Shown: positions 1 to 16,894 of the stretch, piece after piece
Layout of the letters: every line of letters begins with the position of its first letter
Numbering within the stretch: the first letter of the stretch is position 1
Source: Thalassiosira profunda
Taxonomy: Eukaryota > Bacillariophyta > Thalassiosirophyceae > Thalassiosirales > Thalassiosiraceae
Length of the DNA: 16,894 bases
Direction: 5' to 3'
Assembly (NCBI GenBank): GCA_036939355.1
Contig: JALLAP010000520.1
Coordinates: forward strand, 1-16,894
Program-made: the position numbers and the translations under genes
The notes under the pieces: generated by a model
Databases searched by the model: none
Told to the model about the DNA's origin: nothing
The model's input: only the letters and a program-made list of their open reading frames with translations

Positions 1-166
1 CAAGTTCTTCGCGTAGAAAAGTTATTCCATTTCGCTGGAATTTCCACGCTGACACTGAAGTAAAGTACCTGGATCTTTCATACCAGGGGTGTTAGATAAC
101 CTGTCAAGTCGGCACTCCCCCGTGTCCCCCCGGCCGCCCGCCCCTGGTGCACCGACGACGTACACC
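1..166. promoter_or_regulatory. 5' flank of the secreted-protein gene
   Basis: No supported gene. CCTGG (68-72) and CCAGG (83-87) form a short inverted repeat, and C/G-rich sequence precedes the start codon. Promoter function is assumed from position only. Confidence 0.3.
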
Positions 167-1641
167 ATGAAGCCCCCCCTCCCGTTCCTCTCCGCGGCCT
201 CCCTCCTCGCCGCCCGCGCCGCCGCGGCCGAATTGACGCCCGAGGAGTTGGCCACGTACGGGCTGACGCTCGATCAGTTCCAGTCGGTGAGGCGGAGCGA
301 GAGCCCGGCCGACTTCGGGGGGTTGCCGAGCCAGGGCGAGACGGACCAATTGTGGCTGGACGCCGCGTCGTTCGAGTACGATGTGAGTTGATATTCGGTT
401 ATATTATTTGTGCAATAATTGGTGGTAGTGTGGCGCGACGGCAGGGGTTGAACGAGCGAGTCTTCCCGGAAAGGGCGCACTCAGTTGCAGTGCGGCAGAC
501 GCGAGCGCTCGAGAGGCTGGGCTGGCACGCGCACTCTCGTTTGCAACCCTCAAATCTAACACCATGCTCCATACACTTCCTTGTGCAGGTGGCCACCTCC
601 CATGCCTCCGACAAGGCCTCGACCTCCCCCGGCTTTCATCCGTACCTCGTCTGTTCCATGTCCCCCGGCCTCTCCGGCAACAAGCGCGAGGAGCAGGTCA
701 ACGACATGTTCCGGGACACTCCCGGCGTCGAATCCTCGCATTTCTACGCCAACCCGAATCTCTATATAAACAACGACACAATGTCGTGTGGGACGCTCCG
801 CGCGTTCAACGATACCATTGCTAAGGTGTACGGTGCGAATCCCGATGCGAAGGAGTGGATGAAGGTGAATCCGCTGCACCCGAGCATGAAGATGGCGGAA
901 TACACCGTGGACACGATGGAAACCTGGTTCGACGAAGAGGAGGTGGCTGACGACGTGGTATCGATCTCCGGCGGCGCCCCGAACGACAATCAGATTCGGG
1001 TTCAGGTGTTGGGGCTTCACATGCTTCTTTGTCCGGGGGTGCAGTGGTTCGACGAAGATCAGGATCAGGACATGGAGGACATTTCCGACGATCAGATTGC
1101 CGACGAGGTCAAAACCTTCGTTACTGAAAAGGGAGGGGAGACGGCGGCGGAAGTGTCGTTTTACCACCACCGCGCGGGCGGAATGGACGGTCCCGATGCT
1201 GTATACACGGAGAGAATGGCCTTGTGGAATGCCCACCTCGCCAACGTCACGAGCTGGACGAAGGACGACGGCTCGAACGCCTGCCTCGACACTGTCATCG
1301 CCGACCACATGCTCTGGATTGTGAAGGACAAGGTACTGGAGGTGACGGCCGGCCTTTCCTTCAAGGAGGCGACCCTGCTGATGGAAGAAATGGGCTACGA
1401 GCAGTGGCAGATGGAGAATTGCCTGGCGTACATGACGTACGCGCTGGCGCTGAGTCCGCAGGTGTGCACGTTGGAGCCGCGGACGAGGGTTCGGACGCTG
1501 TGCAAGGACGGGACGAGCGATCTGAGCAAATGCCCTCCGCCGGCCGTCGAGGATCCAAACTCGGCAAGGGGCAGAACAGGCTCCTTGTGGAGATTTGTTG
1601 CGTCGATGGCTGGAGCGGCATTGCTCAGCGTGGCGTTGTAG
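167..1641 (+). CDS. Secreted, possibly GPI-anchored protein of unknown function (two exons)
   Basis: Exons are 167-382 and 589-1641. The 206-nt intron (383-588) has a GTGAGT donor and a TTGTGCAG acceptor, and both exons meet in phase 0, giving 422 residues. The ATG at 167 has A at -3 and opens directly into a signal peptide: hydrophobic residues 4-16, then an Ala-rich stretch with likely cleavage near residues 20-22. The mature part has eight Cys (94, 139, 220, 304, 350, 365, 377, 387), enough for four disulfides. It also has three N-glycosylation sequons (N134, N146, N291) and acidic stretches around 186-194 and 226-240. The last 15 residues are hydrophobic and run to the stop after a small-residue segment (about 395-403), resembling a GPI-attachment signal, although Arg407 near it is not ideal. 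I recognise no family. A secretory-pathway surface or luminal protein is inferred from its ends only. A single C-terminal membrane anchor is the alternative. Confidence 0.75.
383..588 (+). other. Intron of the secreted-protein gene
   Basis: It starts GTGAGTTGA, with an in-frame stop at once, and ends in a pyrimidine-rich tract followed by TGTGCAG. At 206 nt it is about 2.5 times longer than every other intron seen here. Removing it joins two coding stretches that are open in phase 0. Confidence 0.75.
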
Positions 1642-1693
1642 GAGCTATCGCATGGTATATTACTTAAGTTGTTCATCGTCCATAGCCGCCGCC
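1642..1693. other. Convergent intergenic gap of 52 bp
   Basis: Only 52 bp separate the stop codons of the secreted protein (+) and the PAH/PHD protein (-). No separate room is left for two non-overlapping 3' UTRs and polyadenylation signals, so the transcripts probably overlap tail to tail. No canonical AATAAA is visible in the gap. Confidence 0.6.
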
Positions 1694-4331
1694 TCACCGA
1701 CGCTGCAGAGACGCCATCGCCTTCGACACAGAGGTTACCGGCTTGCATTTGATGCCCAGGATCGAGTTCTTGTACAGGGGCATCGGCCTATAGGCGGCCT
1801 TCTCGACGAGCTGAGCCAGCCACATCCGATCCACCCCTCGCTCCACCAAAGGCCGAACGCTCGGTGTAGCTTCGCTGCTGTCGGTGACGGTCGTTGCACC
1901 TGCGTCCACCGAGGAATCGTCGACCTCTCCTTCATCTTCTGCTGGTGCGTACGTGTCAACTGCCTTCCCGTCACTTTCGAGCCATATCTGCGTCGAGTGT
2001 TCATCCGAGGACACCAACGCCCGCTCGTGGTTGGACTTCTGCAATAGCAGCTGAGACCACTTCACGGACCTCTCCTGCTCCGCCCGCTCTGCCAACGCCA
2101 GTCCAAGGGGCACGTCCACATCGGCCAAGAGTTCTCGGCGAGGGGGCTCGCTCTCGGCGGCGGGCTTTTCGTCTTCCGAGCCAATGGCCTGTGGATTGTC
2201 AGCGGGAGGCCTTTTTGCCTCTCCAGCGGGCTTGTCCGTTTCACTGCTCACTGCACCGTTCGCAGCATCGTTCACTACGTCGACCAACAGATCCTGCGCT
2301 TCATCCCGCAATCGCAGCAGGGCGTGCTGCTCCTCCCCAAAGAACGAACTCAGCGCCCACCGATCGTCCGGCCGCGTCGCGTTCCTTTCCGAGCTGCCGA
2401 GACGCATATTGGCGAATAGGGCGCCCTCCTCGTCCTCGTGCAAAAATTGCCGCACCGTGACCAATTCCAGCGCGCTCCGGGCGAGGATCATCGCCGGTTT
2501 CCACTTTTCGTGGGTGACTCCCCTCAATTTGGAGGTTTGGCCTTGAATCAGCGCCACGCCCACGGCGAGGCTGTGCTCCTCCAATACGATCCAGCGCAGC
2601 AGCTCTTTCTTACGACCCTGTAGCCCCGCTGGAAAGCGTACCAACACTTCAGATGTCGACAGCGGACACGTGCCGTAATACTCCAAGTCTCTTATCTGAA
2701 CGGTGTTGTTTTTTGTCACTGGCGGTCCATCCCCAACACCGTACAACGATGGGTAGGCTGTGCAGGCCCGAAAATCCACGATGCGCCCCACATGATACTA
2801 GCAAAATGCAAGGATCAGTTGCGTAGAATGATACAAGCGTACAGAGTAATGTTTGCTCACCTCGTTGTCGAGGCTGTTGTACAGCCGCACCGGTTTGCCC
2901 ACCAAACACTCGGCGGTATCATCCACGGGAGGGGCCTTGTGCGCTGCACCCTCGCTTAGCAAAGCCTGCGCAGTCAATTCGGTCGCATACCACAATTCCG
3001 ACCGGGGCGACGGCCGCAGCCTCACCTCCCCAATGCCCGCTTTGGCCTGGGCCAGGCTCCGCTCGACCAAGTTCCCGTCCGGATTCGCTCTCATGTGCTT
3101 CTCCAGCATTGCACAGACGTAGGCGCGACTGCACGAGTAGTGCGATCGATCGTAGTCCACCTTGTCAAAGTACTTCTCTAGGACGGATGTGGATCCCTCC
3201 TCGGCGCATTTGGCGCAGAAAATGTCCCCAGCGGGTACATCGTATTGCGATTGTGGTGGCTGCTCCCCTCCATTCCCAGCATCCCCTTCAGTAGGTACGG
3301 GCGCAGGCGCATCCCCACTCTCTTTTTGCGGAAAGAGAGGAGGGTCGTGCTCGTGCAAACACCCCAAGTGATATTCGGCGTTGCACCCCCTCTGCTCGCA
3401 CAATAAGACGGGTTCGTTTTGCGATATCGCCACCGAATCCCGCTTCCCCTTGCACAATTTGCAGTCCACATGGTCCGTGTGCATTTCATAGGCATATTCC
3501 CCGTCGCGGCCCGGCGCGTATTCGTGCACCACGTCCCGCGGTCCAACTGTGGGCGGCGCCAGCAGTATTTGCGTATTTGCATTGATCCTCCGCTTGGAAG
3601 CAAAACGGGCGGTATTGGACGGGGCGGAAGTGAATTTGATGTTGNGTATTTGCATTGATCCTCCGCTTGGAAGCAAAACGGGCGGTATTGGACGGGGCGG
3701 AAGTGAATTTGATGTTGCTCCGCGGGGCGTCCCCCTTGGCCCGGACCCGCAGCCGCTTTCTCTTGGGAGGATCCGGATCTTGGGGAGCATCCCGCCGCTT
3801 TCGCTTGTGATGGCTGGTGGTGACGCGGTTTGAGTCCTCATCCATATCCCCTTCTTCCTTCTTGGCCCCTTTTCTTTTCTTGGCCCTCGCTGGTGAATGA
3901 ACCACGGGAGGCCCATCCTCCTCCTCGTCCATCGGGACCACCGCCGGTACCCCCGGCTCGACAATCCTAAACTCGGCGGGGAGGAAGGCATTGAACCCCA
4001 AGATCAATTCTCGATTTCGGCCGAAGATATTGCGCATCCGCCCGATGACCTCCTGGGGGGTCAAAACGCCCGTGCGGTAGCCTCTCAGGGAGGAGAGGAA
4101 GGTGCGATATCTCTCGGAGTCGGGGCCGAGGACGAGCTTGACGTGGGCGACGTAATCCCGGGCTGATGGTGCACGCAAGATATGCATCAGACTACGATCA
4201 CATCTTGTGCGCAAAAAAGTACCATCGAAACACTCACCGACGTGCACGCTAGGAAGGGAGCCGTCGCGGTTGGGCACGAGGCGGGCGCCCTGGGCGGGGT
4301 CGCCGACGTACGGGTCTCCGCCGTCGGCCAT
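1694..4331 (-). CDS. PAH (Sin3-like) and PHD-finger nuclear protein, frame broken by an assembly-type duplication
   Basis: Exons on the minus strand are 4331-4238, 4162-2861 and 2797-1694. Introns are 4237-4163 (75 nt) and 2860-2798 (63 nt). Collapsing one 72-bp copy plus the N (73 nt) restores one frame of 808 residues. The ATG has an excellent context (ACCATGG). Residues 33-98 form a paired amphipathic helix domain, including the hallmark 'LILGFNAFLP', the fold Sin3 uses to bind repressors. Basic clusters at 125-133, 151-155 and 165-170 look like nuclear localisation signals. A PHD finger follows: C241, C244, C262, C267, H272, C275, C323, C326, with a long Pro-rich insert before the last pair. 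The section at 428-530 (around 'GRIVDFR' and 'LEEHSLAV') looks folded but I do not recognise it. The rest is acidic and low in complexity. A role as a chromatin or transcriptional-repression adaptor is inferred from domain content. It diverges from the epimerase gene. Confidence 0.85.
3573..3717. repeat. Perfect 72-bp direct duplicate flanking a single N (likely contig-join artefact)
   Basis: Bases 3573-3644 and 3646-3717 are identical, separated only by N at 3645. Both copies lie inside exon 2 of the PAH/PHD gene and encode the same 24 residues (about 181-204 of the repaired protein). The 73 extra bases shift the frame. Removing them reconnects the PAH half to the PHD half. If only the N is spurious, the duplicate is an in-frame 24-residue tandem repeat instead. 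Two unmerged overlapping contig ends is the simplest explanation. Confidence 0.9.
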
Positions 4332-4587
4332 GGTTCAAGAGGAGGTTGACGCCGCCGGTAGGCAGATGCGCGGATGATGGTGCAGGTGAAAATGAAGAAA
4401 GTGCGTGCACTGTGCACCACTAGCTTCGCTCCTTCCTTCCCTCCTCACCTCCAGGCCCGCGTGCCGAAGTCGGCTGAACTCGGTGCACTGACTCTTCACT
4501 CTTGTCTTTGGAAAGCGAAGGCGGCCCGACGACCAAACCCATTGCAGCAACGCGGCGCTATGACATCTGGTCGGTTGAGCACGAGTT
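4332..4587. promoter_or_regulatory. Shared upstream region between two divergent genes
   Basis: These 256 bp lie between the start codons of the PAH/PHD gene (-) and the epimerase gene (+), so both promoters must lie here or overlap the genes. I see no clear TATA or CCAAT box. GTGCAC-type repeats occur around 4401-4418 and again near 4481. An ATG at 4560 opens a 21-codon frame that overlaps the epimerase start, and would be an upstream ORF if transcription starts before it. Confidence 0.5.
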
Positions 4588-6147
4588 ATGGCAACCAGGC
4601 GACGGTCGTCGCTATCTTCGCATAATAATAATTGCAATTCGCCTGCACCAACCTCCGAGAGACGCAAAGACCAAGACGAGGAGTCCGGCCCCTTCCAACG
4701 AATACCCCAAGCAAAGGCCGAAATGGTGTCGCTATCGCCCAGCCCAAAGGGCAAAACTTTCGCCACTTCATCGGGTGGCGTTCCCGAGCACCCGCTGGAA
4801 ATGAGTGACGATGCCGAGCCGTGGAGCAAAATGGACGTCCGCTCGAGCGAGGAGGGCGCGACGAGCTTCTTCAAAAGCAAACGAGGATTGGCGTGCACGG
4901 CGTCGGTGGTGGCACTGTTCATTGCAGCTACGTATGCCCTGTTCACCACGGAGACGAGTCATCGATCTGGCATGCACGAAGGCAACGATGGAAATCTTGT
5001 CGCCCCAATTAAAGGGCAAGCATACCTGACCCCGGACGAGTTCAGAGACATACGCACCGCGCAGCCGGGGGAATCGGTGCTGGTAACGGGGGGACTGGGG
5101 TTCATTGGGTCTCACGTGGTGGACTTGCTATTGCATCGGGGATTCGACGTCACAATATTAGACGATGAGAGCAACGGCCACAATCACAACAAACACGCCA
5201 CGGAATTGGTGCCCCACGACATTACGGTGGTGGGAGATCTCCCCGCGATTCCTTCGGGAGGGAAGACCGGGGGACAATTCACCCACGTGATACACCTTGC
5301 GGCGGCAATCTCCGTGGCGGAGAGCATGAACGAGCCCGAAAAGTACGAGCGCATCAACTACGGCGGCTCGGAGAAGGTGCTCCAATGGGTCGACGCGTAC
5401 AACAACCAATCCTCGGCGGGGGGAGATGGAAATAAAGACCACAAGGATCCGGGAATGAGCTCGATACGAAAAATGGTCGCCGCCTCCTCCGCGGCCGTCT
5501 ACGGGGATCCCGACCCCTCGCTGTTGCCATTGAGAGAGTCGGCGCCGTACGGGGGATTGAGTCCGTACGCCAACACGAAGCATCGAATGGAGGGACTGAT
5601 GAAGAAGTTCGTCGATGGGCAGAACGACAAGCACCCAACAATACCGCGAACGAGCGCCGTGGCTCTGCGATTTTTCAATGTCTACGGACCACGGCAGGAT
5701 CCGAAGAATCCGTACAGCGGCGTCATCAGCCTCTTTTTGGAGAAGGCCCTGACGGGGCACGACATAACAATTCTGGGCGATGGCGAGATGACTCGGGATT
5801 TCGTCTACGTGAAGGATGTGGCGCGGGCCATCGTCTTGGCTCTATTACAGGAGGGGGAGGGCAAGGATGCCGATTTTGCAGTCTACAATGTATGCACGGG
5901 CAAATCCATCACCATCAACACGCTGGCCGCGCAGATCAAGCAGAGCATGGAATCGGAGAGCAGATTAATGCACTTGGAGCCGAGGCAGGGCGACATTCGG
6001 CAATCGAGCTGCAATCCATCGCTGGCGAAGGAGGGGATCGGATTCGTATCGGCGGTGTCGCAGGAGGGTGGATTGGAGAAGACGGCCAATTGGTTCCGGC
6101 TGAAGGATGAGTCGAGGTTGGCGGCCAAGGCGAAGGAGAGGAGATGA
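4588..6147 (+). CDS. Type II membrane-anchored NAD-dependent nucleotide-sugar epimerase (extended SDR)
   Basis: An intronless frame of 519 residues. A cytosolic N-terminal tail (1-98, Ser/Arg-rich) precedes one hydrophobic segment at 101-119. An extended short-chain dehydrogenase domain then fills about 160-500. Its NAD-binding glycine motif is TGGLGFIG (167-174). The catalytic Ser301 lies in 'SSAAVYG', and Tyr327 with Lys331 forms YxxxK. 'RFFNVYGPRQDP' (361-372) and 'GDGEMTRDFVYV' (397-408) are typical of UDP-glucose, UDP-GlcNAc and UDP-glucuronate 4-epimerases and related decarboxylases. The family inverts or oxidises the C4 hydroxyl of a UDP-sugar. The anchor topology suggests a catalytic domain in the ER or Golgi lumen, supplying sugars for glycans or polysaccharides. 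Exact substrate is unresolved. The Met at 46 is a possible downstream start, but the ATG at 4588 keeps the full tail and has G at +4. Confidence 0.88.
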   Translation: MATRRRSSLSSHNNNCNSPAPTSERRKDQDEESGPFQRIPQAKAEMVSLSPSPKGKTFATSSGGVPEHPLEMSDDAEPWSKMDVRSSEEGATSFFKSKRGLACTASVVALFIAATYALFTTETSHRSGMHEGNDGNLVAPIKGQAYLTPDEFRDIRTAQPGESVLVTGGLGFIGSHVVDLLLHRGFDVTILDDESNGHNHNKHATELVPHDITVVGDLPAIPSGGKTGGQFTHVIHLAAAISVAESMNEPEKYERINYGGSEKVLQWVDAYNNQSSAGGDGNKDHKDPGMSSIRKMVAASSAAVYGDPDPSLLPLRESAPYGGLSPYANTKHRMEGLMKKFVDGQNDKHPTIPRTSAVALRFFNVYGPRQDPKNPYSGVISLFLEKALTGHDITILGDGEMTRDFVYVKDVARAIVLALLQEGEGKDADFAVYNVCTGKSITINTLAAQIKQSMESESRLMHLEPRQGDIRQSSCNPSLAKEGIGFVSAVSQEGGLEKTANWFRLKDESRLAAKAKERR

Positions 6148-6472
6148 GAGCTGGGATCCCTCCAATTAATGAGCACTGTGATAGTAGCAGTGAAGTCGCT
6201 AAGTGCATCAACCTCCACCGAACACTACGCGGCGTGACGATGATCGGAAGATCGTCGGTAGATAATTGGCACCCTGCGCTGATATCTCTGCAGAGACGAG
6301 AACCCTGCAGCTCCCGTTTAGTTGAAGCTGTCTCGCATCTCACGCATTGTGATTGCTCTTCGCATTGATTGATCTCGCTTGTCGAGGTGCATTGAGTTGC
6401 GCTCTCATAAAGATCAACAAGTTAGCAAACGAAGTGAACCGACAGAATCAAAACAAACGAGACGAAGACACG
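6148..6472 (+). promoter_or_regulatory. Upstream region of the Cys-rich secreted protein gene
   Basis: These 325 bp hold the 3' end of the epimerase transcript and the promoter of the next gene, both on the plus strand. I see no convincing coding frame. Two small inverted repeats stand out: a perfect 12-bp palindrome TCTCTGCAGAGA at 6285-6296, and GACGAT/ATCGTC arms at 6236-6241 and 6251-6256. Either could be a protein-binding site, but both are short enough to be chance. Confidence 0.4.
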
Positions 6473-7584
6473 ATGAAGCTAATCTCATTGGTATTGTTGC
6501 TTGCTGGACTCGGTGAGTGCGTTTTATATCGAGGCAGGGGGCGAAGTTGCCTGCGATACCTCTTTTGACTCGGCCTTCTCATTCTCTCCCAGCCTGCAGC
6601 ACGGCCGTGAGCAATGATGATGAGGAGCACGCCTTGCTTGCTGGTCCGCGCCGACGTGGATATCGCCGTCAGCGTAGGTCCTGCGGTAGTAGGGTGGTCC
6701 TGCTGCGTCAAGACTGCCAGGACAGGACCGAACGGTGCCTGAGCCAACTCGAGAAAAAGATCAAGCAGCACTTTAACGTCGAAGTTGACCGTGAGTTGGG
6801 GAGTAAACAGGATCGTCCACTGCTGATGGTCCGCGTCGACGAAGACACGCGTTGCGGCGAGCTCACTAAAGCAGTTTTGGGCGATATCAAGCGTGAGATC
6901 AAGAGTCAGTACAATGGACGCCGCGCCCGCGCATGCATCCGCAAGCCCGTGCCCGGGTACCTTCGAACGAGAGCCAGCTCCACGAGCACCAAGAGTTCCA
7001 AAGCCAGTGCCACGGGCCAAAGCAAGAGAAGCCGCAAGTCCTGCGGAGCCCCAGAGTATTTCGACTCGGGGTACCCCACCTGCCGCCAAGTAATGCGAGG
7101 GAGGCACGTCAATTCCTACTACGAGAACCCAAACTTCCTCTGCAAGACGGACCAACGACCATGTGAAGATCCTTGTGCCCTCCTCGACATGGAGCTCCCC
7201 AACGGTATGGTTCTCAATCTGAGGTCAGAAGGTACCGATGATGTGACTTGCGGCTCGGTCGACTCAGATGACGGCCCTCGGGTCGGTGGAGGTCCGGCCG
7301 AGGTATGGCAAGTCCGGACGGACAGAGATGGGGTGCCAAAGAACTTTCCTTGGAACTCCGAATATCGCGTCCTCATGGAGGGGGGATGTGTAAACGAGAA
7401 CAGAGCGCTGGGATCTGATGATAATGATTACGGGCTACCGGATCTGAACAACTATGGATTCGATTCTCTCTGGTGTGGCGCGTGGGACGACGACGATTTC
7501 TATTTCATTATCGTTGATGGCGTTCTCGTAGATTCCTGCCCGAAACGCATTGCCCAGCAGTGCAGAGACTGCGATGGTCGCTAG
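6473..7584 (+). CDS. Secreted Cys-rich basic protein of unknown function (two exons)
   Basis: Exons are 6473-6512 and 6593-7584. The 80-nt intron (6513-6592, GTGAGT...CCCAG) cuts a codon after its first base, giving 343 residues. The ATG at 6473 has A at -3 and starts a short signal peptide (hydrophobic 3-13, likely cleavage near 14-18), so the intron falls inside the signal-peptide coding part. The mature chain has 17 Cys, a strongly basic N-terminal half with Arg-rich 33-42, and a Ser/Lys/Thr-rich linker at 142-163. The C-terminal part (about 210-330) is acidic and rich in Trp, Gly and Asp. Two helical stretches resemble each other: 'LSQLEKKIKQHFN' (63-75) and 'LGDIKREIKSQYN' (109-121), suggesting an internal repeat. 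I recognise no family. Secretion and disulfide bonding are inferred. The Ser/Lys linker loosely recalls silica-associated diatom proteins but is far too short for that call. Confidence 0.75.
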
Positions 7585-7828
7585 GAAGGCACTCACAGCA
7601 TTGAACTGTTTTGTCTGTCAGATGCTGCGTCGAGGAAGAAGGCAAGAATCATGCTCTGCGCTGCCAGTATGATGTACTACGACTGTCTGAATGACTTTGG
7701 AGCAGCCCAACTCCGCTGCTCTCAACAGCTGTTCGGTGTATTGAAAGCTCCGAGAAAGAAGGCGATAGCATAAACTAACTCCAGAGTAATCCTTTGCTCT
7801 ACAAGTCTCCTGTCAGTGCCAGTAGTGG
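7585..7828. other. Convergent intergenic region with a Cys-containing open frame
   Basis: These 244 bp lie between the stops of the Cys-rich protein gene (+) and the giant ankyrin gene (-). Directly after a strong acceptor-like TTTTGTCTGTCAG (ending 7621) the plus strand is open for 49 codons, stopping with TAA at 7771-7773. It encodes three Cys spaced much like those of the upstream protein. It may be an alternative last exon, a remnant of a duplicated copy, or 3' UTR that is open by chance. The only donor that would fit in frame (GTCGCT at 7577) is weak and the implied intron is just 45 nt. Confidence 0.35.
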
Positions 7829-10800
7829 TCAACAGGCGGTAAACCAAGGCCTGAACCGTCGCTTGGACTTCCTCATCTTTTTCTTCTTCCTTGCCGCGGC
7901 GCCCTCCGGATCGGGATCATTCGGTATTCTTCCCAATGTCTGACCCTCAGGAGATACTTCAGGCATCCTGCGGGTTTCGATCTCCATCGGCTCTTCTCGG
8001 CGGTGCCCCTGAGGTGCTCCTTGCTCATTGACTCGAGGACGTCCACCGGCGAGGTTGTTTTCATCCAATGATTCTGATGGCTCATCGACGGCGTTGTCAG
8101 AGACAAACAGCGTAGTTGTAGCCATCTTCCCCTTCAACAACAATTTCCTTCTCTTCAAGAGACTGCCGTATTGTGCTTTGGCGTCCTTTGTTTCATCGAT
8201 ACTGACCCTCAGCTCTCCCAGCCGTTCTTCCAATTCTACGAGCTCCACCATGCCTTCCAACTCACTGACTGTATCCACAGTCGTCCACAAGCCAGGGCTC
8301 GTGCTGGCACCAACACCAGAGGCGCCTGATACAACACGCCGAAGATTGCCAAACTCTCTATCCGGGTCCTTCTCGCGGAACAATTGCTCCAGCTGCACCA
8401 TTGGAATTGCAGCAACGGCCGGATCTCCAGGTGAGAGGTCAATCTCAGCTAGGCCGAGAGCCGATGTGGACAGGGTGCTCTTGTTGTCTAAGCTGCCGAA
8501 ACTCTGATTCAAATTGGCCCTGCTGGAAATGGATTCGTCGTCTAGCGCAGCCTGGAGCTCGTTCTTTCGCAGGATCTTTTGTAAGATGGTAAAGTCTTCA
8601 ACACTTGCAGAGTTGTCCGCGCTGTGCAAAAGGCCGGGCTCGGAGGAGAGCCACGACTCGGGAATGCCCAGATGCAGAGGCAACCCCAGCAGAGTCACCA
8701 ATCCAGAGAAGCCGTTGCTCGCTAGACATTTGAGTGTCGCGACATTCATAAACGGCAAGAGGACATTCGCAATGAGTTTCGGGTTTGGCTGCAGCTCCAA
8801 CGGATACTTGGACCCAGCCTGTGTGCTCCCATCCGACGAACAATGCGGCAGCAAGGAAGCCTCGTCGACCAGATAGAGGTATGCGGTCGATTGGTAGAGC
8901 TCGCAGATCGCTTCAGAGTTTCGTTTGATTGCCCTCCGAGCGGCGCGGATGGGATCACGCATGTAAGATTTTGCTTGGCTAATGCTGCCATCGAGAGCGA
9001 GAACCTCCTTGCAAATCATCGCGTAATTCATACCGCAACCAAGGCCGTTCACTATTTCTTTCGCAATGGATGCGGACGATTCTTTCCGGGAGCGCTGCAG
9101 CCAGCTTTGCAGACGTGCTTTGAACTCATCGCCATCTCTACCCCGGATCTTGCCATTCATCATGAGCCAGAAGCTGAGCCTGGCCGTCGCCTTATTGATT
9201 TCCAGGAGGCACTGGCCAAACTGAATTGCGCTAGAAATGATCCTGGGTTCGGTCGACAAGACGGGTCTCCTGGATGATGGATCGATGCTGAGTTCGTACG
9301 GTAGTACCACGAGGCACGTCGGAAAGGCAATCTGGTCCGTGGCAAAGCCTAGCCTGCAGAATTTCTCCATAGAGTCCTCGAGCAAGGCCGATACGTGAGT
9401 TGACACTTTTCGGATGGACACGGTGCTGTCTCGAAGTATCTGCATCTCCTCGTTTTTCACAAGAAAATGCTCCGCCTCGACCGAATTAGGCGAGAAGAAT
9501 GGATGCTTCAAAACAGCATCCATGGTGGGCAATCGTTCTTCTGCAGGCACAAGGATTCGGCAGAGCAAATCCTGTGCCAACGGGTCTTCGATGTGCTCCT
9601 TCACATTCCTTTCTGCAGCATCTTTGGTCCAGTTGTACAGCTTCGAATACGCGTCTACTCCGCGAAGTTCGCCTTGGTACCCAACGTGGAATGGGTTGCC
9701 TCCGCTGCACAGCTCGTAGAGGAAGATTCCAAAGACCCAGACGTCCACCTCGACAGAAGGGGGTACTAATGCGTACGGCAGCGCAGCCGCATCCCGAGGG
9801 GGGTAGTCCTTTCTGTTCTCGAATGTTTTGATCATGTATGCACAGTGACTCTCCTCGTCCACACGAGGCCGGATGACTCTTTCCCAAAGGTCGTGTTGGT
9901 GACACATGCGCCTCCAAACTGTACAGAACTGGTCGAGCGAAGCGCATTTGGACAGGGCGCGGGGCAGATCCTCAAACTGGATCGTGTTCAGCAAGGTTGA
10001 GATGTTCCGCTTCCACCCATCGCTCTCCTGACCATTGGCAGCGTCTTTCTCTGTTGGCGAATTAGCATTTGTTTCGACAAATCGAGATAGCACCTGTCGT
10101 TCGTGGGGCGTGAGCGCCTTAAGATTGCTTGCATCCGCGTGGGTATACTTCCAATACCGCATCAGCTGATCAAATGTATCACTATGTGACAAGTCAACTT
10201 TCGCAATCATTTCTGGTGGCAGAATGCTTGGGCAGAGCTTGGTAGAGGTGCCACCAATGGCGTTTACGCCATCAATTGCTTTCAAGAATAACGCACTCCC
10301 GAAGTCCGACAGCGCCATTTTGTCCCCTGATGCCAGCAGGACATTGCTCAGCTTCAAATTCATGTGTGTTATGCCTAGTGGATCGTACGCAACACACCAG
10401 TGAGTGCAGCGAGATCAAACAAAAGGAGCAGCGCAAGAGGAAAAACAATCACTCACCTTGTTCGTGGAGAGCCTCCAATGACCGCCCGATTCTTCGTGCG
10501 TTCTCCCTCAAACTATCGGAGCTTATTCCCTCTCGATGGACGAGATCCCTTAGGTCGCACCTGGCACTGGGCATGACGATGCCATGCGGCATTCTCGAGA
10601 GATCAATCGAAGGAGACCCATCACCATAAATATCCCGGGTGAAATCGCTGCTGTCCCTTTCTTTGTCGCCGTCGAACGAAAAATGATTGAGGATGGGCAC
10701 AACTGCCAATGATTTGCTGCCACTCTCGCGCAGAATGCCCCTACATTGCCTCTCAAGCTCGTATGACTGCTTGCTCTGCATGAACTTGATGACAACCGGA

Positions 10801-13800
10801 CGGGAACCCGAGTCATCAACATCATGGAGTCGGCAGAATTGGGCAAAGACCCCCTTCTTTACACCCTCTTTGAGGTTCGGCTTTTCCTGCTCTCCTGGGA
10901 GCTCGCTGTTCAGTGACGTGTCTAGCAACGGCGAATCCCTCACCAGCTTCTGAATCTCAGCAAGTGCCTGGGACGGGTCGACGCCAATCTTTCCTGCAAA
11001 GTGAGTGAAGCGATCAACTTCAATTGCGTTCGATTTGATGGCATGAACGCTCCCATCACAGTGCGAGTAGTCATCGATGTCTGGCTCTTCAACGCTCATC
11101 AGTGTCTGTATCGAGAGGAACGCTTCCATGGCCCCGATGTCTTTCGCCTTTAATACGACGCACGACTCTGACCTATGCAGTGGGACGCATGCTCTGTCCA
11201 AGACATATCGACCCAGGAAACTGAGACGGCTCCTCAGTATCAACGCGCATCGTGGTGCAGAGCAGTCCTTGATGGGAACGTCTGGCACTGGCTCTGATTT
11301 GGGGTTCGTTGTCAGGGCAAGAAAGCGAACGGCCTCGATAGGCAGCGATCGAACAATGTCAGATACCACTGCCGCGTGGATGCCGTCGGTGCACATCCAG
11401 CACCAGGCCAATCTTGCCATTTCAGTCAATTTGGTATCTTCATTCTCGAGCTTTTTGTCGCTGCATTGTGATGCCTCTTTCTTTACGATCGCTGCAAGTC
11501 GTTCGATACGATCCTTCTCATCGCGATAGTAAGTTGTGAGGTATGGCCGGCTGGACTTGGGACAGTTGGGATTGTGCACAAAGATGAGGTCGGATCGGAG
11601 GTTGAAGCTGGAATCATTATTTGGAGAGAGTGAGGTGTGAGACACACAGTGGCCAGACATTCATACATGCATCGTGCAATCAACTCACTCTGCTTCCCCA
11701 AGAGCCATTTGGGTGGCGCCATCTCCAGTTGCCCCGACCGTCTTCTCCACGCCCGACGACGAGATCTTCAGTCGCCCTTCCTCAAATATCTCAAGAGCAT
11801 ACATTGCTTGATTCTTCTTTCGGCCCGCCTCTGCCTTGCTCGCATTAAGGGGCGGAACAGTCTGGCGTTGGACCTGCGCCGCCTCACTGTAGGAGGAGAG
11901 CAGGCCCTTCAATACGTTGTATTGACAGCGATATTCCGCCGCGACTGTGAGTTTCGCGGCCAAGGAAGAATTGAGTGAGAGAATGACAAAGACAAGATGT
12001 CTGTGATGTGGCTGAGACTCACTGTGCAGAGGCAAATTCACGCCCAAGCTGCCTGGATAAGCGCAGATCGTTGGATTGTGTATGATGGGTCTGAGGAGCA
12101 ACTCGACAGTCATTTGGGTGGCCGATCCAGAGCGCACCAAGAGATGGAGGGGCAAGTCGCCCTCGTCCGTGCGCCTGTAGCATCCGTCCGCATAGGCATC
12201 AACTAAAATCCTCAGCAGCGCCTCGCTGCCACCGTGCTCTGCAGCCAAATGTATTGGCAGCTTCCCACTCGAGTCTTTCAGGTGCGTCGCGTTCACTCCC
12301 TGCTCAGTGAGCAGGGCCCGTAGGATGCCCAGGTACGGCATGCGGGGACCGCTCAATGCCGCGTGGAGTGGGGTACGCCGGTCCGAGTCGGCATCGAGAA
12401 GCGACGCTGGGCTGGCCTCGACGAGACAGCGCAGTGTCCGCTCAAGTACTCCAACCTTGAGGGCGTAGTGCACTGGCAGATCGCGTCCAAATCCCACCGA
12501 CACGAGAACTTGCATCTGCTCCTTCAGATTGCCAGGGTTGTCTCCCCCGCTCAGCAGAACATGCAGAGGGTTGTGGCCGTTGTAGTCGCAGGAGTAAACG
12601 AGCTGCCGCACGGAAAGGTTCGTCACTGCGAGGGTGTATCCCTCCGAGCCAAAATACCACAGAGTGTACGAGTGCCCTGGGAGGTGGTTGAAGGAGACGC
12701 TAACCCGAGTTGGCTGCCGTTGCGTGGAGGACGCTGTCGCTCCGTCATCCTTGTTTGTGGCCTTGACCGGCGTGGATGCCACCACCAACTCAGGTTGGGC
12801 GTTCGCCCGCTTCGCATCTTCTCGCAACACCAGCAACCCTCCTCCCTCACAGTCGATGACACTTCGCTCCTCTCTATCCCTCCCTTCTTCCGGACAACTT
12901 TGATCGTAGGTCACTTCGCAGCTGATGACAACAGTGTGCGTGCAGCTGGGCACAAACGGCAAATCCAGCTTCTGCCATGGGAGGGACACTCGGCCTTCCC
13001 TCTCCACCAACTGTGTCTCTGTCTCTGGCGCAAATAAGTCGGAGCTGAGCCTCCACTCGCCACAATCGTCCATTATTTCCATCGAGGAAGGCCGGGGAAG
13101 CCGCCGCACGCCGCGAGCGCGGGCCCTCCGGCACGTCGACGAATAGGCCAACGCATCTCCGGCATCCAGAAAGGATAGGACAGAGCTGTGAAAGAATGCC
13201 TCTCCCAGCATCTGCCGCATCGTGCCATTGGGCGCACGCTCTTTCGCCTCCTCCAAGACAGTGCGCCCATTGGCCAGAGGCGGCACGCGGACCCCTTCCG
13301 AGACGGACTCAGTCCGCAAAAAGTTCAATCGCAGGACCATCTGGGGCTCCAGGCCCTCCAGTACCCGACCAATCGCCGCGCCAAAGTTGGGCGTGGGCCG
13401 AGACTTCCTCGCGGACTTGTGCGAGGGATCGCCTGCGCTCCGACACAAAAACAGCCAGACGCTCCCGGCCATGTCAGGCAGCACCCCCTCGTTCCCTTCC
13501 GCGGCGGCCTCCCCCCGAATAAGCGCCTCGAACCTCCCCAAGCGCGCCTCGTCGTGACAATAAACCGCCCCCTTGCTGCTCACGGCCTCAGGGAAGTAGC
13601 TAAACAGCAAATCGCTCCGGCGAAAGTATTCTTCGCTCAGCAATGGGAAATCCTCGTCCGACGTCCGGTCCACCTCGCGGCCTGCCCGCCCCTCCTCGAA
13701 TAACTCAATTGGCAGCGCGTTTATTCTGTCTGGATGCAGCGCCGCCGCAACCAGGGGGGTCCGCGCCCCCTCCGGGTGTGCGCGGCACAATCCTGACAAT

Positions 13801-15533
13801 ATATCAAAGGAAGCGCCGTGGAGGGCGGCTATGTGCAGAGGAAGGATCGTGCTCGCCGTCGAGTCCGGAGCGGAGTTGAGCGATCGCAGCGAGGCGCCTA
13901 CGTCGTTGTCGCTGCCGCGGGCTGAATGCGACAGGCCGTTGGCTCCGGTGGCCGCGGTGGCCAGCCTCGCCTCCGGATTGTTATTCTGGATCGCTGCCAC
14001 GATAGGTTCCAGCAACGCCGAGATGGCGCCGCAGTGCTCCTCGTTGAGGAAGACGCTGGCGTCCTCCGATCCCAGGGAATCGCCGCTGGACAGCGCGTGC
14101 GCCCCAGGCTGATACGGCACGGACACGAATCGCCAGTGGAGGAGGTGCACGGCCAAATCCCGGCCGTAGCACCCTCCCGTCTCGGGAAATAGTCCAACTT
14201 CGGATTCATCCTCCGGCAAGACGGCATTTCTGTTGACGTCCCACTCGTAGCTATTGCTGGAGTCCCCGGGTTGAAACGGGGGCAACACCGGCGTCCAGGC
14301 CGCGGACGGAAAGGCCTCCACGAGAGCGCGGAGTATCGATTCATTAGCCCGCGGACAGGCGGCGGCGCGGTGGAGGGGCAGTCGGCCCTCAGTGTCGCGA
14401 GCGCGCAACGCACGGCGGACGGCCGATCGGATGGCCGATTTCTTCTCCCCTATCTTTCCAGACGTATCGCTGTCGGTGCCCAGCAGGGTCTGCACCAATC
14501 CCAGTCCGTCCGCCATCCCCCCCGCATTCCCTGCGCCTCGATCCTCGAACACAATGTGAAGCGGCGTTTGCTTCCACCGGTCCGTCGTGGCCAGTCCATC
14601 TGGATGGGCTGTCATCAATAATTGCGGCACCTGTCTTGTTTCCTCCTCCTCCTCATTGTATTTGCCCGTGCCGGCCGGCCCGTACCGATTATGGACGACG
14701 GGAGTGGCGTCCCGCTCCCATCTTTGTCGCTGCGGATTGGCAAAACTGGGAACTTCAATGTTCTGCCCGGTGTGCCTGCTCTCCGATCCATTCGGCCCAC
14801 CGCCTCTCTTCCGGCAAGTTGCCAGATGCAGTGGTAAGCGGCCATTGCGGTCGGGAATCCGGCACGCATTTGGACACGCCCGTATCAGCAAGGATATAAC
14901 ATCAGGAGGAGCATTGCCGCACGCAATCAGGAGGGGGGTCGACCTGTCCTGCCCCTCCCTCGCCACCAGCTGCCGCTTCAACGATGCAACTCGCTCGGGG
15001 GACATGCCATTGTCAGAGTTGTGAGTGCTGCAATGGCTGCCCTCGTCGTCGCCGTGGGTCGAGGAGGGGGCCGCGTTGGCCACAGAGCTCGAGGCAGAGG
15101 CGGCGTCCTCTTCTGCTTTTCGTGCTGGCAACTCTTTCTCCCGCCGTTCCTGCCCTCGATGTCTCTCGTCCCCACCGGAGTACTCCGCAGGCCTACTCCG
15201 TCCCCCCTCCCCCAAACTCTCGTCGTAGCTGCACCCCAGATTCTCCTCGTCGAACCAGCTCTCCGACGAATCAGAGGCGTCGCTCACATCCACTGAATGC
15301 GTGTGCTCGGTGGCGGTGCGCCGGCCGCTCGACGGTGCTGTTGTCGCGGTGGGGGCGAGGGAGGCGCGGTGTTTGCCCTGTGTCTCGGGGCGATTACGTG
15401 TCTGTTTGCCATCACCACCAGTCGTCGCGCCCTCGGTCTCAAGCAGCGACGTCAATGTGGCCCGGACCTCGGGCCAGTTGCCCTCGGCGCAGAGGACGTG
15501 CAGCTCGCCTTCGAGCTTGGCCGGTTTGCCCAT
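7829..15533 (-). CDS. Giant ankyrin-repeat protein fused to an atypical, probably inactive, kinase domain (four exons)
   Basis: Exons on the minus strand are 15533-12023, 11944-11689, 11607-10457 and 10374-7829. Introns are 78, 81 and 82 nt, with GTGAGT donors and phases 1, 2 and 1. The total is 7464 nt, or 2487 residues. The start is the ATG at 15533 (A at -3, G at +4); the frame is open a little further upstream but only with non-ATG codons. Ankyrin-type 'LPLHxA' units sit near 233, 323, 385, 564, 988, 1054, 1092, 1127 and 1167. An F-box-like stretch lies at 784-805 and a beta-rich stretch at 825-980. The kinase-like domain (about 1505-1935) has VVIKF (Lys1529), HMNLKLSN (1643-1650) where HRDxxxxN is expected, DFG (1663-1665), PPE (1692-1694), DVWxxG (1850-1855) and a final 'LKHPFF'. 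About 155 residues separate PPE from DVW. An uncharacterised C-terminus with a helical segment (2343-2388) and a Lys/Arg-rich end (2469-2480) follows. A cytosolic or nuclear scaffold is inferred. Two separate genes is the main alternative. Confidence 0.8.
10375..10456 (-). other. Intron immediately before the kinase catalytic loop
   Basis: Donor GTGAGTGAT at 10456, acceptor CCACTAG ending at 10375, 82 nt. Splicing gives 'LHEQGGITHMNLKLSN', placing the catalytic-loop helix and loop in one frame at the spacing usual for protein kinases. Confidence 0.88.
11608..11688 (-). other. Intron that joins the ankyrin part to the kinase part
   Basis: The donor GTGAGT begins at 11688 and overlaps the TGA that would otherwise end the ankyrin frame. 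The acceptor is ATTCCAG, with the exon resuming at 11607. Splicing turns GA plus C into Asp1256 and continues straight into 'FNLRSDLIF'. That phrase echoes 'FRRSDLLF' at 637-644, which lies uninterrupted inside the first exon. Confidence 0.8.
11945..12022 (-). other. Intron inside an ankyrin repeat
   Basis: Donor GTGAGTCTC at 12022, acceptor CTCACAG ending at 11945, 78 nt. Splicing rebuilds the ankyrin signature LPLHIAAEY. Retention keeps the frame open because the intron is a multiple of three without a stop, but inserts 26 residues in the middle of the motif. Confidence 0.88.
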
Positions 15534-16007
15534 CCTGCAACTTTTCGGGGTATCTCCGCCCTCGGGGGTATCTTGCAAAAAAATCCTCTCGAGTCCCTAC
15601 TTCAGGCTACCTGCCCGAGCCGGCGGCGCTCTGCGGCTTCTGCTGCGGAGAGACTGGCTGCTTATGCCGACGCCCGCGCTGGCTGGAGCGGCGGGGCAGG
15701 GCGGCGCATGTTCCTCCGCTCGCTCCATCCGAGGGCTCAACTTTCAACTTTTTCGTAGGGTGTACATGTGAAGGAATCAGTACTAATTTTGGCGGTTAAA
15801 ATCCGCCCAACCCCCCCGCCCCGCCCCCCACACCCTGTGCTCCCTCGAGGTCCCCGCTAGCTCTGCCCTCACCCCCGCCCGCGGCGGGCCCGCTCACCCG
15901 CTCCCCATACCCGAGGCGACAGCCCCCCCTTGCGCCGCAGAACGGCGTTGCGCCGCTGCCGTGCCTGGAGCCAATATTTTTTTCTGCCGAGATACTTTTA
16001 GCCCGTC
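15534..16007. promoter_or_regulatory. GC-rich shared upstream region between the giant ankyrin gene and the MYND gene
   Basis: These 474 bp separate two divergent start codons. The stretch 15806-15960 is very C-rich on the plus strand. At 15785-15802 an E2F-like TTTTGGCGG is followed by CCGCC, forming a 5-bp inverted repeat (15791-15795 with 15803-15807). A 13-bp inverted repeat GCCCGCGGCGGGC lies at 15877-15889. A CCAAT pentamer sits at 15971-15975, only 33 bp before the MYND start codon. No open frame of note is present apart from a non-ATG upstream extension of the ankyrin gene to 15578. Confidence 0.5.
15806..15835 (-). promoter_or_regulatory. Potential G-quadruplex motif
   Basis: On the plus strand five C-runs of 3, 7, 4, 6 and 3 are separated by one to three bases. 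The minus strand therefore carries a textbook G3+N1-7 quadruplex pattern, about 275 nt before the ankyrin gene's start codon and on its coding strand. The pattern is seen; a regulatory effect is inference. Confidence 0.5.
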
Positions 16008-16894
16008 ATGCCGTTCGATCGCAACAACTTCGCATCCGGCGTGGAGAAGCGCCTCGTGGCCGCCGTCCGCGCCTCCCGCGGGTGCTTCAACCCCAGCTGC
16101 GGCGCCCCCGCCGCGTCCCGCGCCTGCAGCAAATGCAAGATTGCCGTTTACTGTGAGTGCTCATATCATATGCACATGACGTCCTGACAAATACTATCTC
16201 ATGCACTTTAAATCATCACATCCATTTGCAGGCTCCCGCGATTGCCAGCGGGCCGATTGGAAGCTGGGCGGGGAGATGTCGCACAAGACCCTGTGCCAGA
16301 TCTATTACAACAACATCACTCCGGGCGTGAACAGTCCGAAGGGGCAGGAGTTTCCGATGCCCGTGGCGTTGCGGTCCGTGGGGTTCATCGAAGAGCAGCA
16401 AATGTTCGATGCCCTCAAAAGGAGGGGCGAGGCCTTCCTCAAGGAGGCCAAGCGGGTGGTGGGGAAAAGCGACATGACAATCGGCCTCGTGGCAAACTGC
16501 ATGTACAACTTCAACCGTCCCATCCTCCAGTGCTCGGCGACCGTGTTCGACTCCGACGCCGGCGACGACGCCCCGGGCAGCTTGTTTGGCAAGAAGCACG
16601 AGCGGGTGGAGAACGTCGTCTTCGTCCCCATCGGCAAGGGAGGGGAGCACGTGCGGGAGAAGCTCCACCCTCCCCTGGGATCGGGGGACATCTCCAAACA
16701 GCACCGGCGGAACGTCGTGAAGGAACTGAAGGCGTTCATTGCAAAGGCGGTCAACGATTACGGCCTGTCGGTCGATGTCTTCACGTACCAACGTGGGCTC
16801 ATGTGGATGAGTAACGATGGATTCCAGAGTGGAGGAGCTAAGGAGCTGGAGAAGGCCAATGGCGGCAAGCGGATTCGGTGGTCTCCCGACATGC
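16008..16894 (+). CDS. MYND zinc-finger protein, 5' part (runs off the window)
   Basis: Exon 1 is 16008-16152. A 79-nt intron (16153-16231, GTGAGT...TTGCAG) splits a Cys codon. Exon 2 runs from 16232 to the window end without a stop, giving 269 complete codons so far. The N-terminus carries a MYND-type zinc finger: C26, C31, C40, C43, C49, C53, H66 and C70. The first pair is spaced C-x4-C rather than the usual C-x2-C; the second half (YC-x3-C...H-x3-C) is canonical. MYND fingers mostly bind short proline-rich peptides and appear in transcriptional and histone-methyltransferase proteins. I see no SET signature in the part present. The region after the finger (about 75-269) is mixed alpha/beta and unrecognised. 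The start has G at -3. The intron falls exactly at a zinc-binding Cys, which supports the splice. Function beyond a protein-interaction role is not claimed. Confidence 0.85.

Follow-up and report, generated by a model that had tools for sequence, protein, structure and literature searches.

ILK combines ankyrin repeats with a pseudokinase that is said to act as an adaptor. In RNase L, ankyrin repeats precede a kinase fold, which is followed by another C-terminal domain. In PMC4718504, ILK is mentioned, with one title describing it as an adaptor, the kinase fold of RNase L is said to bind ATP with phosphorylation not seen and to have Asp505 at the Gly of DFG, and HER3, with Asn in place of the catalytic-loop Asp, is said to bind ATP and to show weak autophosphorylation. 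Here we describe a gene of comparable layout from the diatom Thalassiosira profunda, found in a 16,894-nucleotide stretch of DNA (GenBank assembly GCA_036939355.1, contig JALLAP010000520.1, positions 1 to 16,894; hereafter the window). Its minus strand from 15533 to 7829 is almost certainly, judging from the sequence, a single spliced gene of 2487 codons, and the kinase domain that it encodes is probably a pseudokinase.

The gene has four exons and three introns (78, 81 and 82 bp), all of the form GTGAGT...AG. It starts with an ATG at 15533, its TGA stop codon is included in exon 4 (10374-7829), and the cumulative exon lengths of 3511, 3767 and 4918 give intron phases of 1, 2 and 1. A sequence-only reading of this DNA had rightly placed it in a diatom and had proposed the same introns, phases and frame, and the splice model is indeed open: when two combinations of introns with GTGAGT donors, the only donors combined, were compared, the chosen one was open for 2487 codons versus 1665 for the alternative. 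Once intron 1 is excised, the ankyrin motif GVNLPLHIAAEY (NLPLHIAA) is restored, as is the kinase catalytic loop LHEQGITHMNLKLSNVLL once intron 3 is removed. Without splicing, the ankyrin frame terminates at a TGA inside the second donor, as had also been noted. On the sense strand of the gene GTGAGT occurs four times, as the three donors and at 8265, and on both strands of the window it occurs 15 times against a mean of 7.5 after shuffling (0 of 200 shuffles reached 15); because most of these 15 do not mark introns of the gene, the motif is not decisive by itself. Nor can the open frame alone prove every intron, because intron 1 of the window is stop-free and in frame, and intron 3 is likewise open and in frame in a second copy of the gene.

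This second copy, found on another contig of the assembly (C616), matches window positions 4633-15786 colinearly at 88% DNA identity and is a stronger test of the gene model than the GTGAGT counts; the pattern of change between the two sequences bears out every intron, as the open frame alone would not. The C616 gene has the same three junctions, introns of 80, 76 and 81 bp, and 2490 codons; with its length of 80 bp, intron 1 would break the frame there if left unspliced. All nine indels in exons are multiples of three (6, 9, 18, 3, 12 and 12 bp in exon 1, 15 bp in exon 2, none in exon 3, and 6 and 24 bp in exon 4), and five of the seven in introns are not (4 and 2 bp; 2 and 3 bp; 1, 1 and 3 bp). 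Exons are 89-92% identical, and introns 1, 2 and 3 are 86%, 71% and 63% identical. By a simple pairwise count (NG86), synonymous divergence (dS) is 0.28, nonsynonymous divergence (dN) 0.062 and dN/dS 0.22 over 2471 aligned codons, with every exon at or below 0.26, and the differences at codon positions 1, 2 and 3 number 145, 122 and 366 (2181 codons first tested). Purifying selection acts on the spliced gene. The lowest ratios are found in ankyrin module B (0.11, residues 986-1255), the C-terminal domain (0.13) and the kinase domain (0.16), and the last of these fits a scaffold or switch and not a dying gene.

The protein shows, in order, ankyrin module A, a beta-rich domain, ankyrin module B, a kinase fold, a mostly helical C-terminal domain and a basic tail that ends in Cys (Table 1). 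Ankyrin models scored above their cut-off, the kinase domain (Pfam PF00069) reached the curated score and is modeled as a bilobal fold, and the structure-match lists (Foldseek, VIA) were filled by kinases, or by ankyrin and other repeat chains. The kinase fold holds an insert of about 150 residues between PPE and DVW. Neither this insert nor the beta-rich segment nor the C-terminal domain had a PDB profile match below E=0.07, and the C-terminal domain had no Pfam family and no PDB relative by sequence. The RNase (KEN) family was not among the Pfam matches at E<=1 for ten C-terminal proteins, and a PDB profile search with the C-terminal domain gave no KEN-type chain at E<=10; the 50 structure matches listed, which were filled by kinases, omit RNase L and IRE1, and this is not evidence against a relation. 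Pfam, model and profile searches bear out the two ankyrin modules, the kinase-like part and the C-terminus without a named family that the sequence-only reading had described, and they do not sustain its F-box-like segment: the Pfam F-box-like match (E=0.11, 12.7 bits versus a cut-off of 24.3) sits inside the kinase insert, and a second candidate, before the beta-rich domain, reached only E=0.52 to FBXW7. F-box-like matches at E<=0.5 appeared in 3 of the 18 proteins scanned, the best at 0.11. The tail with its terminal Cys (FRPWFxxC or FRPYFGxC, with small variations) ends 33 fetched proteins as well as both T. profunda copies. It is not a CaaX box for prenylation, the Cys being the last residue, and a role as a lipid anchor would be a guess.

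At the position of the catalytic Asp, the window has Asn1645 (HMN for HRD), a point absent from the earlier reading. Among the 35 sequences of the tree described below this position is Asn in 14 (the window, C616 and 12 others) and Asp in 21. A separate alignment of the motifs left out P0031-P0034 and preceded the retrieval of P0052 onward. In a quick, midpoint-rooted tree with SH-aLRT support only, calculated without P0024-P0034, P0040-P0051, P0056, P0057 and P0059 and with long branches at P0023, P0058, P0008 and P0007, 13 of the 14 Asn sequences form one group (SH-aLRT 92; 12 sequences and 97 without P0008), while P0058 stands apart, so that at least two changes are needed. Members of the window's clade read HMNLQ or similar, with HMNLK in the window itself; the Skeletonema group and P0007 read YLDLQ, and P0012 reads YPDLQ. 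Eleven sequences read HGDLK (P0017-P0023 and P0052-P0055, the latter group holding the two named araphid pennates), of which ten have DFD at the DFG position and P0023 has DMG. DFD is also found in P0058 (HGNLA), and the window has DFG. The beta3 Lys (K1530), the alphaC Glu (E1541) and the DFG Asp (D1663) are invariant in 18 aligned sequences. From kinases in general and the outer sequences of the tree we infer that Asp is the ancestral state, which on this alignment is lost in the window's clade and kept in its relatives, and the living relatives seem to hold successive stages of catalytic-loop loss.

A less likely reading, though one to be taken seriously, is that the kinase of this single gene remains an active enzyme whose catalytic loop is unusual. 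The retained Lys, Glu and DFG Asp and the constraint on the domain would suit such an enzyme, as would the weak activity that HER3 keeps with Asn at the same place (PMC4718504) and the Lys at the HRDxK position of the window. The decay in the clade goes further than the Asp, which argues against activity: among the 23 sequences that share the window's side of the tree, only the window has this Lys and the other 22 have Gln or Ser in its place, and the loop Asn is replaced in P0004, P0005 and P0039.

The fusion of the ankyrin and kinase halves is already on public record. P0001 is the hypothetical protein ACHAXT_006534 of Thalassiosira profunda (2490 residues), which is 87.5% identical to the window's protein along its whole length and shares 2478 of 2490 residues with the C616 product. 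At 11 of these 12 differences P0001 has the window's residue, and ten of the 11 lie at residues 1484-1570. Residues 1442-1591 of P0001 form a run of 150 residues identical to the window, and elsewhere P0001 follows C616; the public gene thus looks like a mosaic of both copies, by gene conversion or through a chimeric assembly. Going by titles and the opening lines of abstracts, we found no paper on ACHAXT_006534 or this diatom protein. As the sequence-only reading had suggested looking for, the fused layout recurs in other diatoms: in Cyclostephanos tholiformis (P0004, 2224 residues, record marked LOW QUALITY), in JGI proteins such as P0005 and P0008, in Skeletonema up to residue 1946, and in Thalassionema nitzschioides (P0053) and Thalassiothrix antarctica (P0054), which align over residues 609-2487 of the window's protein. 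The last two bear CAMPEP/MMETSP names, which we take to mark transcript-derived peptides. Because Thalassionema and Thalassiothrix share the layout, the fusion likely predates the divergence between these two araphid pennates and the centric diatoms listed above. Orthologue DNA was also sought in viral contigs, where 80 stretches fit a pattern and none was confirmed.

The expectation that automatic annotation might split the gene was overstated, as the public T. profunda record joins it; such splitting does occur in other species and at other splice sites. P0024-P0030 (7 of 7) depart from the shared sequence at the position of intron 3, where P0019 and P0021 have extra in-frame residues, and this intron position looks old; P0038 seems to enter the shared sequence from an intron at the intron 2 position. 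All of P0009-P0016 (8 of 8) terminate at residue ~1946, with EK then VS, and all of P0042-P0050 (9 of 9) start at residues 1942-1952, which points, in Skeletonema and further relatives, to an apparent fourth intron position beyond residue ~1946, one with no intron in the window. This apparent intron splits the gene in protein sets and leaves C-terminal proteins of 532-589 residues. That residues from 1950 onward are a separate gene product in many diatoms, merely read through here, would account for the same ends and starts and is nonetheless very unlikely: the eight ends all show EK-VS, the reading expected of an unspliced donor, P0043 and P0046 open with intron-like residues, P0006 of the Skeletonema group crosses the point unbroken, and contigs of equal size (9758 for P0009 and P0049, 9259 for P0011 and P0048) point to a shared contig for the two pieces. 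Also very unlikely is that the window holds separate genes for an ankyrin protein, with its end at the TGA near 11685, and for a kinase, starting from an in-frame ATG at 11660, perhaps on one bicistronic or alternatively retained transcript. In favour of this reading, the TGA and ATG have counterparts at matching places in C616, both copies have an open frame from the ATG into the kinase, and some kinase-bearing relatives have no ankyrin repeats. Against it, the stretch diverges like an intron (71% identity versus 89-92% in exons), C616 has 5 bp fewer there, the gap from TGA to ATG is only 24 bp, and relatives read straight through without those residues.

Taken together, we consider it reasonably likely that the gene encodes an ankyrin-pseudokinase scaffold, one protein of ~2490 residues conserved in diatoms, with a layout like that of RNase L or ILK and with membership of neither family claimed. 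In this mechanism, the ankyrin modules would dock partners, and the kinase domain, without efficient phosphate transfer, would still bind nucleotide and switch its shape, as may be expected because the beta3 Lys, alphaC Glu and DFG Asp are kept. The helical C-terminal domain might relay the state of the kinase domain, and the basic, aromatic, Cys-ended tail could hold the protein at a membrane.

Several observations weigh against parts of this proposal. The docking, switch and membrane roles are drawn by analogy. A loose GxGxxG pattern of the glycine-rich loop was found in 1 of 37 sequences and not in the window, which makes nucleotide binding uncertain even in the HGD relatives, and the loss of a motif is no proof of inactivity, given the weak activity reported for HER3 (PMC4718504). 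The ancestry of Asp is weakened by the midpoint root, the long branches and the outermost sequence, P0058, which has Asn; the same protein, aligned to residue 2381, ends without the tail. Constraint is weaker in residues 421-560 (dN/dS 0.40), ankyrin module A (0.35) and residues 2331-2487 (0.32). The structure models are middling (mean pLDDT 72 and 68), and that of the kinase is of the relative P0035. Finally, P0035, P0037-P0040 and P0051 are the kinase-bearing proteins without ankyrin repeats; those of their starts that were examined fall inside conserved domains or resemble intron ends, and these proteins look cut short.

Table 1. Features of the ankyrin and kinase-like gene, in window coordinates.
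Feature	Position	Strand	Description	Support
Exon 1	12023..15533	-	residues 1-1170 plus 1 nt: disordered N-terminus, ankyrin A, beta-rich domain, most of ankyrin B	open frame; in C616 at 88%
Intron 1	11945..12022	-	78 bp, GTGAGT...CAG, phase 1	80 bp in C616
Exon 2	11689..11944	-	last part of ankyrin module B and linker	
Intron 2	11608..11688	-	81 bp, phase 2, in-frame TGA within donor	76 bp in C616
Exon 3	10457..11607	-	conserved linker and kinase N-lobe as far as LHEQ	
Intron 3	10375..10456	-	82 bp, phase 1, within kinase, directly before catalytic loop	81 bp in C616
Exon 4	7829..10374	-	from catalytic loop through stop codon	
Ankyrin module A	14274..14978	-	about residues 186-420	Pfam Ank at 198-224; helical pairs in model m3ed3a54b8051
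Beta-rich domain	12579..13001	-	about residues 845-985	model secondary structure
Ankyrin module B	11886..12578	-	about residues 986-1190, spans intron 1	
Kinase-like domain	9458..10874	-	about residues 1501-1945, spans intron 3	
Asn1645 codon	10358..10360	-	catalytic Asp position, HMN for HRD	
C-terminal mostly helical domain	8303..9445	-	about residues 1950-2330	conserved in diatom relatives
C-terminal tail RFRPWFTAC	7832..7858	-	conserved, terminal Cys	

Three arbitrary 6-kb probes of the assembly gave one full second copy at 88% (C300/C532), one copy of ~1 kb at 87% (C50/C264) and only repeats (C900), and window positions 1-4500 gave merely short matches elsewhere. T. profunda is reported to have a BUSCO duplication of 26% and is yet estimated to be diploid (PMC12159174). 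The two copies are possibly divergent haplotypes, or come from a hybrid or a mixed culture. Two further genome matches to the exon 4 query, C487 (38%) and C525 (27%), each cover about 90 residues.

Around the gene, the plus strand at 4579-6147 carries an NAD-dependent epimerase/dehydratase gene whose product is extended at the N-terminus (Pfam Epimerase, 1.5e-48), and the minus strand at 2801-4003 has a PHD-finger-like match under the cut-off (20.9 versus 23.9 bits). At 3573-3717, a single N at 3645 stands between two identical 72-base stretches, likely an assembler join. The opposite-strand neighbour at 16009-16894 (plus strand) likely has a GTGAGT...CAG intron at 16153-16231, and its Cys pattern is presumably MYND-like.

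The nearest plan, by analogy, is that of RNase L, whose order of ankyrin repeats, kinase fold and further C-terminal domain the window's protein shares. The Asp at the Gly of DFG in RNase L is matched by the DFD of 11 relatives that fall on the tree's Thalassionema side; unlike RNase L, the window has DFG, a second ankyrin module, a beta-rich domain and a kinase insert, and no KEN family was found by sequence in its type of C-terminal domain. A more daring view, which we regard as quite doubtful, is that the protein is an independently arisen diatom counterpart of the RNase L plan, with an ankyrin sensor, a kinase fold that binds nucleotide (with DFD in relatives of the Thalassionema side), a C-terminal effector of an undescribed kind and a tail as membrane tether, in which the enzyme became an allosteric switch in Thalassiosira-like diatoms by the visible steps HGDLK, YLDLQ and HMNLQ. 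ILK is far shorter than the window's protein, and the likeness noted between them, ankyrin repeats with a pseudokinase, is one of layout. HER3 has the same change of the catalytic-loop Asp to Asn and the same retention of the beta3 Lys, loop Asn and DFG Asp (PMC4718504); it differs in being a receptor tyrosine kinase without the alphaC Glu that the window keeps. Comparison of the related diatom domains offers a way to test the change from enzyme to scaffold, and the case of Skeletonema shows how a gene of this kind may be cut by gene prediction where an intron lies, with an orphan protein of about 530 residues left over. ACHAXT_006534, the same protein as the window's, is labelled merely hypothetical in its record. 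Ankyrin-plus-kinase proteins are a known kind, and the finding is largely ordinary and on record; what is unusual is that living relatives seem to document the stepwise loss of a kinase catalytic loop, and that a very large protein of this kind is kept across centric and araphid pennate diatoms, together with a C-terminal domain and tail that are likewise conserved and matched no named family in the searches made here.

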